A DNA stretch of 51,447 bases from positions 1-51,447 of the forward strand of contig JAAYEJ010000066.1 of NCBI GenBank assembly GCA_012728835.1, in the 5' to 3' direction. This DNA is from Candidatus Brocadiaceae bacterium. Lineage in GTDB: Bacteria; Planctomycetota; Brocadiia; SM23-32. How positions within the stretch are numbered: the first letter of the stretch is position 1; the number at the start of each line of letters is the position of its first letter. Made by a program: the position numbers and the translations under genes. The notes beneath the pieces were generated by a model that ran no database searches, was not told where the DNA came from, and was given only the letters and a program-made list of their open reading frames with translations. This document shows positions 4,421 through 50,556 of this stretch, piece by piece.

Positions 4421-5086
4421 TCAGAGCGGGGCGTCCGTCCCCAGCACGCGCCAGGCGGCCGCCGTCTCCTCGAACATCGCCCGGCGCAGCGCCGTGCAGA
4501 ACGCGTGCCGGTCCGGGTAGTCGGCCACGTGCAGCGCCGGCCCGAAGCGGACGATGATGCGCGTGAACGGCTTCGGAATCACGAAGGCGTCCCAACTGCG
4601 CGCCGTCCACGCCTCCCGCACGGCCACTCCGACCGGGTAGACGGGCATGCCCGTGCGCCGCGCCAGCATCCAGATGCCCGGCTGGACGGAGAACCGCGGC
4701 CCGCGCGGGCCGTCCGGCGTCAGCACCGGGCTGTAGCCCTGCTCGACCATCGCCATCATGTCGCGCAGCAGCCGGGCCCCGCCGCGGGAGGACGAGCCGC
4801 GCACCGTGGCGATGCCGTAGTGCCGCATGACTTGGGCCACGTACTCGCCGTCGCGATGCTCGCTGACCGGCACACAGACGCGGCTGTTGCGGAAGTGCCC
4901 CAGCATGCCGGGGATCTGCCGGTGCCAGAAGGCGGCGATGGCCAGGCGGGAGCCCGAACGGAACGCCTGCTCCACCCCCGGCGGGCCGGTGGATTCCGTG
5001 CGCCACGTGGCGTCGAACGTGCGCACCGCCAGGCTGCCGAGACGGCCGACCAGACGGAACCCGACGTTCTGTTGCAGGATGGGCAT
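4421..5086 (-). CDS. DUF374 lysophospholipid acyltransferase family protein
   Basis: 221 aa, usual size for DUF374 proteins of the LPLAT superfamily, which probably acylate a lipid or lipid A precursor at the inner membrane. Family segments in order are AFWHRQI (active-site His region), VSEHRDGEYVAQV, VRGSSSRGG, and the strongly conserved TPDGPRGPRF with the following QPG.W.LARRTGMPVYPVGV. The start is the ATG at 5086. The longer frame upstream overlaps the TauE-like gene, which ends 5 nt before this ATG, so the two are probably co-transcribed. The upstream ribosome site is weak, consistent with translational coupling. Confidence 0.85.
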   Translation of the reverse strand: MPILQQNVGFRLVGRLGSLAVRTFDATWRTESTGPPGVEQAFRSGSRLAIAAFWHRQIPGMLGHFRNSRVCVPVSEHRDGEYVAQVMRHYGIATVRGSSSRGGARLLRDMMAMVEQGYSPVLTPDGPRGPRFSVQPGIWMLARRTGMPVYPVGVAVREAWTARSWDAFVIPKPFTRIIVRFGPALHVADYPDRHAFCTALRRAMFEETAAAWRVLGTDAPL

Positions 5087-5091
5087 GGGGT

Positions 5092-5550
5092 TCAGGCGGC
5101 ATCCTCGCCGCCGGGGCCGGTGTCGCCGCTCTGGGCGGGAACGTTGATCGCCGGCACGTCGGGCGGGGCGGCGTTCCGCATCTCGCGCCAGCCGCCCAGG
5201 CTGAGCCGGACGCCCACAACGACCATCAGGAGGCCGAAGATGACCTTCAGTTGGGTGTTGGAGATATGCGACTTGGTCACCGTGCCCAGTTGCGCGCCGA
5301 TGATGCCGGCCGGCAGCGCCATCAGCACGAGGATCCACCGGATGTCCTCACCGCGCCGCCACTGGAGCAGGGTGCCGGTCAGGGCCACGGGTACGATATA
5401 GGCCAGGGACGTCGACGCCGCCGCCTTGGCCGGCAGATGGAACAGCAGGAGCAGCATCGGCACCATGACGATGCCGCCGCCGATTCCCAGAAGGGCGCTT
5501 GCGAAACCCGTCGTCAGGCCGACCACACAGTACGCCACGTAAGTCCACAT
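5092..5550 (-). CDS. Half-length TauE/SafE-type membrane permease
   Basis: 152 aa, about 60 % of the usual 240-270 aa for the sulfite exporter TauE/SafE family. It has about four hydrophobic helices. The first repeat carries the family signature GFASALLGIGGG followed by VPMLLLL, then AAASTSLAYIVPVALTG. After the fourth helix (VIFGLLMVVVGVRL) the protein ends in a soluble Pro/Gly-rich tail instead of a second four-helix repeat. Family members move sulfite, sulfonates or organic anions. A half-length protein would have to dimerise, and the substrate cannot be inferred. The ATG at 5550 follows GGGAGA. It heads a two-gene minus-strand unit with the acyltransferase. Confidence 0.8.
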   Translation of the reverse strand: MWTYVAYCVVGLTTGFASALLGIGGGIVMVPMLLLLFHLPAKAAASTSLAYIVPVALTGTLLQWRRGEDIRWILVLMALPAGIIGAQLGTVTKSHISNTQLKVIFGLLMVVVGVRLSLGGWREMRNAAPPDVPAINVPAQSGDTGPGGEDAA

Positions 5551-48311: not shown

Positions 48312-48923
48312 CTACGGCTCCGTGTGCCCGCCCTGCGCCCCGATGGCCACCGCTTCGGCCAGGGCGCTGAGCAGCAGCAGGGGCAGGATCACGGCGGCGT
48401 AGGCGGCGGCGCGCGCGCCCAGGGCGTGCGGGTAGGACGCGGCGCCGGACCGGACGGCATGCCCCATGCTCATGCCCATCGCCAGGGCGAGCCAGAAGCA
48501 GGGCAGTTCGAGCAGCAGCACGAGCAGGCCGCACGCGGCGGCCAGTCCGGGGGGCGGTCTCCATCGGTCGTCGGCGGGGCGCAGAGCGCCCAGGAGGTTC
48601 CCCCGGCCGGCGACGGCGCTGACGACGCAGACGTTGAAGCCCGTCCAGAGTGCGAAGAGCTTCGGCAGAACGGGGTGGATGCCGGAGGCCATGTACAGGA
48701 AGATCGCCAGGCCGTTGAACCCGAAGATGACGGCGGCCACGCGCAGGATGCCGGGCGCCGGCCCCATGAGGCGCACGAGGAACCGGAGCATCGCCAGGGG
48801 CAGGCGGGCCAGCGCCTGCCACCGGTAGCAGACCGCCGGGCCGGCCGCGAAGGCCCCGGCGGCGAACAGCAGCGCGGCGTGCACGGCCAGGCGCGCGTGA
48901 TCGCGAAAGACGAAGCTCAGCAT
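48312..48923 (-). CDS. Membrane protein, possibly stage II sporulation protein M-like
   Basis: 203 aa with about four or five hydrophobic helices. FGFNGLAIFLYMASGIHPVLPKLFALWTGFNV and ELPCFWLALAMGMSMG resemble the helices of SpoIIM/DUF95 membrane proteins, but the match is only suggestive. It begins 10 nt after folD, behind GAGGG, so it is the last gene of the MBL-folD-membrane protein run. Role unknown. Confidence 0.6.
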   Translation of the reverse strand: MLSFVFRDHARLAVHAALLFAAGAFAAGPAVCYRWQALARLPLAMLRFLVRLMGPAPGILRVAAVIFGFNGLAIFLYMASGIHPVLPKLFALWTGFNVCVVSAVAGRGNLLGALRPADDRWRPPPGLAAACGLLVLLLELPCFWLALAMGMSMGHAVRSGAASYPHALGARAAAYAAVILPLLLLSALAEAVAIGAQGGHTEP

Positions 48924-48933
48924 CGGCGTGCCC

Positions 48934-49803
48934 TCACGCCTGGCGGCGCGCGCACTCGACCGTGTGCTTCAGGAGCATCGCGGTCGTGACGAGGCCGACG
49001 CCGCCCGGCACGGGCGTGATCATCGAGGCGCGCTCGGCGGCCGCGTCGAACTCGACGTCGCCGACGATCTGCGTCTTCGTCTTGCCGTCGACCTTGACCC
49101 TGGCGCGGTTGATGCCGACGTCGATGACGACGGCGCCCTCGCGGACCATGTCGCCCGTGACCAGGCCCGCCTTGCCGGCGGCCACGATCAGGACCTCGGC
49201 CCGGCGCGTGTGCGCGGCCAGGTCGCGCGTGGCGATGTGGCAGCAGGTGACCGTCGGCGACTCCCGGATCGACTGCAGCAGCATGACCACCATGGGCTTC
49301 CCAACGATCTCGCTGTGGCTGACGACGACCGTTTCCTTGCCCTTCAGGTCGACCCCGGCGTGGCGGAGCAGGGCGACGACGGCGTGGGGCGTGCACGGGC
49401 CCAGCGAGAGGTCTCCATAGAAGAGCCGGCCGATGTTGGCGGGGTGGAGACCTTCGACGTCCTTGTCGGGGTGGATGGTCTGCTGGACGTGGCGCGAGTC
49501 GATGCCCTCGGGCAGCGGCATGAGCAGGATGACGCCGGTGGCCGCCGGGTCGGCGTTGAGGCCGGCGACGTGGGCCTCCAGGTCCTTCTGGCTCGAGTCG
49601 CGAGGCAGTTCGTGCAGTTCGTAGGCGATGCCCACCTCGCGGCAGGCCTTCTCCTGGTTGGCGGCGTAGTACTTGGCGCCGGCGTTGTCGCCGAGGACCA
49701 CACCGACGAGTTTCGGCGTCCGGCCGAGCGTCCGGATGTCCGCCATCGCCTGGTCCTTGATGGCGTCGGCGATCGGCTTCCCCTTGATCAGCTTTGCGCG
49801 CAT
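48934..49803 (-). CDS. folD: FolD-family protein with altered active site
   Basis: 289 aa, full length. The family normally interconverts methylene- and methenyl-tetrahydrofolate (dehydrogenase) and 10-formyl-tetrahydrofolate (cyclohydrolase). The scaffold is intact: KDVEGLHPANIGRL, IVGKPM, VVAAGK, VIDVGIN, ITPVPGGVG. Against the human enzyme, however, Lys56 of the YxxxK motif is Gln50 (Tyr46 kept), Gln100 is Leu94, Asp125 is Glu117, and the NADP-contact GRS is SHS. So cyclohydrolase activity is doubtful and cofactor or substrate may differ. It starts with ATG behind GGAGA, after the MBL gene, in the same unit. No second folD is in the window. Confidence 0.88.
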   Translation of the reverse strand: MRAKLIKGKPIADAIKDQAMADIRTLGRTPKLVGVVLGDNAGAKYYAANQEKACREVGIAYELHELPRDSSQKDLEAHVAGLNADPAATGVILLMPLPEGIDSRHVQQTIHPDKDVEGLHPANIGRLFYGDLSLGPCTPHAVVALLRHAGVDLKGKETVVVSHSEIVGKPMVVMLLQSIRESPTVTCCHIATRDLAAHTRRAEVLIVAAGKAGLVTGDMVREGAVVIDVGINRARVKVDGKTKTQIVGDVEFDAAAERASMITPVPGGVGLVTTAMLLKHTVECARRQA

Positions 49804-49848: not shown

Positions 49849-50556
49849 TCACCGGCCCGAACGCAGCAGCTTCTTGAGTTCCTCTTCGATCCAGTGTTCC
49901 GGCCTGGACAGGCAGAAGGCGCCGTGTCCGGGGTAGAGGACGTCCGGCGGGTCCTCCAGAAGTCGCTGCAGCGTGGCCAGGTACGCCTCGGCGTCGTAGT
50001 CGGGGCGATTGCGGAACTGCTCCATGGCGGGCGAGCGGACGGCGTCTCCGCAGAACAGCATGCGCCGGCCCTCGCACGTCACCTCGTAGCCGACCGAGTC
50101 GGCCGAGTGGCCCGGCAGGGCGAGGGCGCGTATCCGGCAGGTGCCGAGCGTCAGCGTCTCGCCGTCGGCCATCTTGGTGACGGCCCGCACGGGCCGGAAG
50201 CGGCGGTGATAGTGGTAGGCGACGGTGGCCAGGCCGCCGGTGCGGAGGGCCTCGGCCGCGGCCGGCCCGGCGAGGACCTCGACGCCGTTGCGCTGCAGGT
50301 CGTCGGCGGCGCCGGCGTGCGGCAGATGGGCATGGGTCAGCAACACGTGGGTGAGGTCGCGGGGGTCCATCTCCATCTCGCGGAGGTTCCCCAGGATGCC
50401 CGGCAGGCTGTCGCCGCAGCCGCAGTCGATCAGCACGAGGGGATCGCCCGTGTTCAGCAGGTAGGTGTTGCAGTCATTGGCGGGCCAGTCCAGGTACACC
50501 ATGTTGTAGTCCTGGCCGCCGACGAGGTAGACGGGTCCGATCAGCCGCATCCCCAT
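49849..50556 (-). CDS. Metallo-beta-lactamase fold hydrolase, altered metal site
   Basis: 235 aa, MBL superfamily, hydroxyacylglutathione-hydrolase-like size. The signature is THAHLPH where THxHxDH is usual, followed by LPGHSADS, LFCGDAV and YPGHGAF as the other metal ligands. The Asp of HxHxDH is Pro, so the second metal may be missing or differently bound. Substrate unknown. ATGs at 50556 and 50550 are both possible, with no clear ribosome site. It is the first gene of the run with folD. Confidence 0.82.
   Translation of the reverse strand: MGMRLIGPVYLVGGQDYNMVYLDWPANDCNTYLLNTGDPLVLIDCGCGDSLPGILGNLREMEMDPRDLTHVLLTHAHLPHAGAADDLQRNGVEVLAGPAAAEALRTGGLATVAYHYHRRFRPVRAVTKMADGETLTLGTCRIRALALPGHSADSVGYEVTCEGRRMLFCGDAVRSPAMEQFRNRPDYDAEAYLATLQRLLEDPPDVLYPGHGAFCLSRPEHWIEEELKKLLRSGR

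Follow-up and report, generated by a model that had tools for sequence, protein, structure and literature searches.

A FolD homologue with altered catalytic residues in Planctomycetota: a probable monofunctional methylene-tetrahydrofolate dehydrogenase paired with a separate FchA

Introduction

Can a FolD homologue in which the three classical catalytic residues are all replaced still be a bifunctional methylene-tetrahydrofolate (methylene-THF) dehydrogenase and cyclohydrolase, and if not, which protein supplies the missing step? The question is raised by a gene in a stretch of 51,447 nucleotides from Candidatus Brocadiaceae bacterium (contig JAAYEJ010000066.1), here called the window. A sequence-only reading of this gene had proposed that it is selected rather than decayed and that its product is either dehydrogenase-only or uses another pterin or cofactor. 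Our analysis indicates that the protein is very probably a monofunctional 5,10-methylene-THF dehydrogenase, likely to prefer NAD, and that the cyclohydrolase step would be performed by FchA. Acetogens and Clostridium perfringens are already known to split the two steps between a FolD-type dehydrogenase and FchA. Residues are numbered below as in human MTHFD1 unless the window protein is meant.

Results

The gene and its flanking genes are arranged as follows.

48312..48923, minus strand: small SpoIIM-like membrane protein, downstream of folD (weak PF01944 match)
48934..49803, minus strand: folD homologue of the Gln56/Glu125 type
49849..50556, minus strand: metallo-beta-lactamase-fold hydrolase (PF00753), upstream of folD

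The folD reading frame is intact and encodes 289 aa from an ATG. Both FolD domains are present in order and at full length (PF00763, E=1.4e-30; PF02882, E=1.2e-59), well above the Pfam gathering scores, which places the protein in the FolD/MTHFD superfamily. Its AlphaFold2 (AF2) model has a mean pLDDT of 91.5, with FolD and MTHFD crystal structures as best matches. Among close relatives the dN/dS of folD is 0.13-0.30, showing that the gene is under purifying selection, and together with the fold match this indicates a gene that is neither broken nor drifting, in agreement with the sequence-only reading. That several active-site residues are altered in the window protein could point to a non-catalytic or decaying remnant, but this is extremely improbable given the dN/dS, the intact fold, the fact that no other FolD serves this genome, and the spread of its clade over about 29 Planctomycetota families.

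Alignment to solved FolDs runs without gaps across the key segments and identifies these codons.

49654..49656, minus strand: Gln50, at the catalytic lysine (Lys56 in human, Lys54 in E. coli); Gln in 69/69 clade members
49522..49524, minus strand: Leu94, at the Gln100 (E. coli Gln98) position; Gln, His, Leu, Ser, Thr, Ala or Ile in the clade
49453..49455, minus strand: Glu117, at the pterin-binding Asp125 (E. coli Asp121), carboxylate kept; Glu in 68/69 of the clade
49315..49317, minus strand: His163, the middle residue of SHS, where the NADP-contacting GRS motif has Arg; 47/69 clade members have His and 72/88 Lys56 enzymes have Arg
49234..49236, minus strand: Ile190, where human MTHFD1 has Ser197, which binds the 2'-phosphate; usually Ile, Val, Lys or His in the clade and usually Ser or Thr in Lys56 enzymes

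The window protein thus reads YAANQ for YxxxK, GVILLMP for GILVQLP, KDVEG for KDVDG and SHS (residues 162-164) for GRS, and the residue assignments made by eye in the sequence-only reading were all correct. A realignment restoring the catalytic lysine was considered and rejected, since neither tyrosine has a lysine at +4; the basic residue (Lys or Arg) two positions after residue 50 is found in normal FolDs as well. Compared with the bifunctional enzymes of E. coli, P. aeruginosa and human (MTHFD1), the window protein has the same fold, both domains, Tyr52, the dehydrogenase cofactor domain and the PVPGGVG motif, but it lacks Lys56 and Gln100, has Glu for Asp125, and at the NADP-phosphate site has His for Arg and Ile for Ser. 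The protein falls short of the curated NCBIfam equivalog score for bifunctional FolD: the best score among the 25 models listed is 285 bits, where 411 are required, and none of these models reaches its cut-off.

In order to interpret these changes we relied on mutants of the E. coli enzyme, in which K54N leaves about 19% of dehydrogenase and no detectable cyclohydrolase activity, and Q98H leaves about 8% and about 1%, respectively (PMC5688156). Of the other two residues, Gln98/100 holds the lysine in place and Asp121/125 is a pterin ligand (PMC3338484). On these data and residue roles, a Gln56 protein is expected to keep the dehydrogenase and lose the cyclohydrolase, and with Lys56 lost Gln100 is expected to be dispensable.

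Comparison of 171 non-redundant FolDs (pairwise identity < 85%) agrees with the latter expectation. Lys56 is present in 88 of them, always together with Gln100 and Asp125. In a further 69 the residue is Gln56, accompanied by Glu125 in 68, while position 100 varies freely and keeps Gln in 37. Hence the view that three classical residues are lost is right for the window protein and does not extend to the whole clade: the change of Gln100 to Leu is not clade-wide, and the change of Asp125 to Glu retains a carboxylate. Gln50 and Glu117 are invariant among 14 relatives with identities down to 47%, and the eight family members in which a FolD is present, seven relatives plus the window, all have Gln56 and Glu125. 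Beyond the key positions, only the columns of the CTPxG motif, CTAxA in the Gln56 type, sharply separate the two types; SHS is specific to the window protein, and most of the clade has GHS.

A quick maximum-likelihood tree, from which positions 56, 100 and 125 were left out, groups the Gln56 sequences, with one nested Ile56 member, into one clade (SH-aLRT 100); the window protein therefore belongs to this clade and not with the Lys56 enzymes. The nested member (L235, G133) is an Ile56/Gln100/Glu125 FolD. The clade covers Planctomycetota, Omnitrophota, SAR324 and Alphaproteobacteria. In a scan of named genomes the Gln56/Glu125 pair was seen in Omnitrophota, SAR324, Mesorhizobium, another Hyphomicrobiales genome, Notoacmeibacter and other Planctomycetota, and it is also present in a large share of the window's own class. 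A survey of 294 Planctomycetota genomes, in about 85 of which the residues were read directly, places the Gln56 type in the roughly 29 families mentioned above. Separately, two loci of family f33 (L243 and L255, genomes G173 and G194) encode a very divergent Gln56/His100 FolD with ITSPKGGSGPVT or ITSAKGGTGPVT replacing ITPVPGGVGPMT.

If the cyclohydrolase has been lost, another protein should provide it, and the genome search suggested in the sequence-only reading gave a clear picture. The window's genome yielded no second FolD, one formate-THF ligase (fhs) and one stand-alone FchA-family protein of 222 aa (PF04961), so that it combines a separate FchA with no other FolD. The best PDB match of this FchA is the methenyl-THF cyclohydrolase 7vg4, which we take to be the Fch of Methylobacterium; its sole NCBIfam match is FchA, at 134.7 bits, below the cut-off of 275. 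The Gln56 FolD would convert 5,10-methylene-THF and NAD(P)+, with NAD the probable cofactor, to 5,10-methenyl-THF, or run in reverse; the separate FchA, encoded elsewhere in the genome, would interconvert methenyl-THF and 10-formyl-THF, and Fhs would link 10-formyl-THF to formate. We make no claim of a Wood-Ljungdahl pathway (CODH/ACS) in this genome, where a single weak CdhD match (27.8 bits) was all that was found of it.

FchA co-occurs with the Gln56 type far beyond this genome: FchA-family proteins are present in 62 of 65 genomes in which it is the only FolD detected. Among the residue-checked Planctomycetota, PF04961 is present in 57/60 Gln56-only against about 15/30 Lys56-only genomes (Fisher p=4e-6), five of the latter matches lying in frames of fused-FTCD length and G032 being excluded because it also carries an Ile56 copy; in Gln56 genomes, too, some matches lie in frames long enough for a fused FTCD. 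Named genomes, mostly of other phyla, give 5/5 against 5/38 (Fisher p=3e-4). In genomes carrying both FolD types, FchA is present in 0/9, or in 2/11 if two doubtful genomes are included (G026 and G314, both with FchA and with Gln56 copies that seem fragmentary; Fisher p<1e-7). At the level of families, 29/29 with the Gln56 type and 8/18 with Lys56 have FchA (p=8e-6). Genome and family assignments in these tables were tallied by hand, and because the Gln56 sequences form one clade the events are not phylogenetically independent and the p-values overstate the certainty. Anammox-like relatives have FchA alongside a Lys56 FolD.

These observations bear on whether the enzyme is still bifunctional, with the Gln56/Glu125 pair or another group supporting the cyclohydrolase by a different mechanism. 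Such an alternative catalytic arrangement would fit the co-conservation of Gln56 and Glu125, which is as tight as that of Lys56, Gln100 and Asp125 in normal FolDs, and the apparent absence of FchA from three Gln56-only genomes (G337, G203 and G012, 92-95% complete). We nevertheless consider it unlikely, as the clade shows no constraint at position 100, genomes that have no Lys56 FolD almost always encode FchA, and engineered loss of Lys54 abolishes cyclohydrolase activity (PMC5688156). The dehydrogenase-only explanation of the sequence-only reading is well supported by these lines of inference.

In three genomes of genus g16, of the same class as the window (G020, G028 and G037; loci L174, L175 and L195), a Gln56 FolD is accompanied by a normal FolD encoded elsewhere in the genome, and FchA is absent. 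In these Gln56 copies two otherwise invariant motifs are altered, GGVGPVT to GGVEPVT/A and GINR to GINH, which may reflect another shift in function.

Gene order provides a further connection with FchA. The gene immediately upstream of the Gln56 folD, in the same orientation, is fchA in one genome from Armatimonadota and two from Omnitrophota (L047, L053 and L110). A phylum survey of Omnitrophota, comprising only 7 genomes, gave no further fchA-folD adjacencies. In the window's genome fchA does not adjoin folD, and we found no operon of the two in the window's family; adjacency is frequent in such pairs and not obligatory. The hydrolase precedes folD in the same order in four relatives (L162-L165) and shows no sign of a role in the folate pathway; the SpoIIM-like frame follows folD there, directly or one gene away, and likewise has no obvious folate role. 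Another family member (L166) has, about 3 kb from its Gln56 folD, a frame judged by eye to resemble a methyltetrahydrofolate methyltransferase (4672-5463).

Clostridia carry a comparable pairing. Among 30 retrieved fchA loci, 12 have a folD in the roughly 1.5 kb of flanking sequence that was retrieved with them; all 12 of these FolDs lack Lys56, having Ala or Ile at 56, Phe or Leu at 100, and Asp125. They share with the window protein the missing lysine and, as proposed for the latter, a cyclohydrolase supplied by a separate FchA, yet they are placed elsewhere in the tree, so that Lys56 has been lost independently beside FchA more than once and by different substitutions. In our judgement this repeated loss is the strongest evidence that loss of Lys56 means reliance on FchA.

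The second part of the question concerns the cofactor and carrier. Ser197 of human MTHFD1 binds the 2'-phosphate of NADP (PMC9173628). Across the clade both contacts to this phosphate are altered, the Arg of GRS mostly to His and the Ser197 position mostly to Ile, Val, Lys or His; in the window protein, His163 and Ile190 replace Arg173 and Ser197, which is consistent with NAD use but no proof of it. As both contacts shift across the clade, the Gln56 FolDs probably prefer NAD over NADP, and the proposal of another cofactor is plausible in that form. The proposal of another pterin found no support. A dehydrogenase acting on a different C1 carrier, such as tetrahydromethanopterin (H4MPT), or on a different substrate could explain why the pterin-contacting Asp is Glu throughout the clade, but it is very improbable: no H4MPT cyclohydrolase (Mch) was found in the genome, which encodes THF-type Fhs and FchA, the window FolD retains Tyr52 and the carboxylate, and a marine plasmid relative lies in a THF C1 cluster with fhs, a canonical folD and tdm.

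Discussion

Taken together, loss of the cyclohydrolase, retention of the dehydrogenase and a preference for NAD are what we infer for the window FolD. For the clade as a whole we favour, with some reservation, a distinct NAD-linked methylene-THF dehydrogenase family defined by the coupled changes K56Q and D125E. It would have replaced bifunctional FolD widely in Planctomycetota and in several further phyla, obliging the hosts to keep FchA, and would have been added beside a normal FolD in alphaproteobacteria and SAR324, possibly to serve methyl-group catabolism as an oxidation module. In these latter two groups the Gln56 enzyme is indeed found in addition to a normal FolD. The gene order on a Ponticoccus plasmid (L124, 6027-12347) is fdhF (formate dehydrogenase), fhs, folD (Lys56), folD (Gln56) and tdm (TMAO demethylase), which suggests a role of the Gln56 FolD in oxidising TMAO methyl groups.

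Several known systems divide the two activities in a similar way. In Methylobacterium, MtdA and Fch likewise form a split dehydrogenase and FchA-family cyclohydrolase; MtdA, however, is not a FolD. The C. perfringens FolD is reportedly dehydrogenase-only. Yeast MTD1 (1edz), a monofunctional NAD-dependent methylene-THF dehydrogenase, belongs to the FolD family and lacks the cyclohydrolase, as predicted for the window protein, but it is very distant (E=7.7e-14 across part of the window protein) and has arrived at a different residue solution. The function of MTD1 is taken from titles cited in PMC11064299, and the C. perfringens FolD/FchA pair is that of Aluri et al. 2016, as cited in PMC7219735. 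The cluster of the acetogen A. woodii has the order fhs-fchA-folD (PMC10472528).

The literature that we searched, which is limited in coverage and hence no proof of absence, contained no description of the Gln56/Glu125 clade. Its members, the plasmid copies for example, are annotated as bifunctional. As a consequence, models of planctomycetotal metabolism would assign the 10-formyl-THF step to the wrong gene and miss FchA, which we predict to be essential in Planctomycetota with a Gln56 FolD. These residues have been described as strictly conserved (PMC3338484) and position 125 as aspartate in MTHFDs (PMC6443876), statements that the clade contradicts. Furthermore, with Lys56 gone, Gln100 freed and FchA needed, the clade offers a natural experiment on the usual joining of the two FolD activities. 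Since carolacton hydrogen-bonds to the FolD lysine (PMC5688156), the Gln56 enzymes are predicted to be naturally insensitive to it.

A different arrangement was observed in a Chloroflexi genome (G069, also the source of L115). No FchA was found in this genome, and two divergent folD genes lie in tandem (L136, 1501-4000), the first encoding Ile56/Phe100/Asp125 with GTGAVT for GVGPMT and the second Lys56/Gln100/Asp125 with VDN for GRS. To judge from these residues, it looks like a case in which the two activities are divided between two FolD copies.
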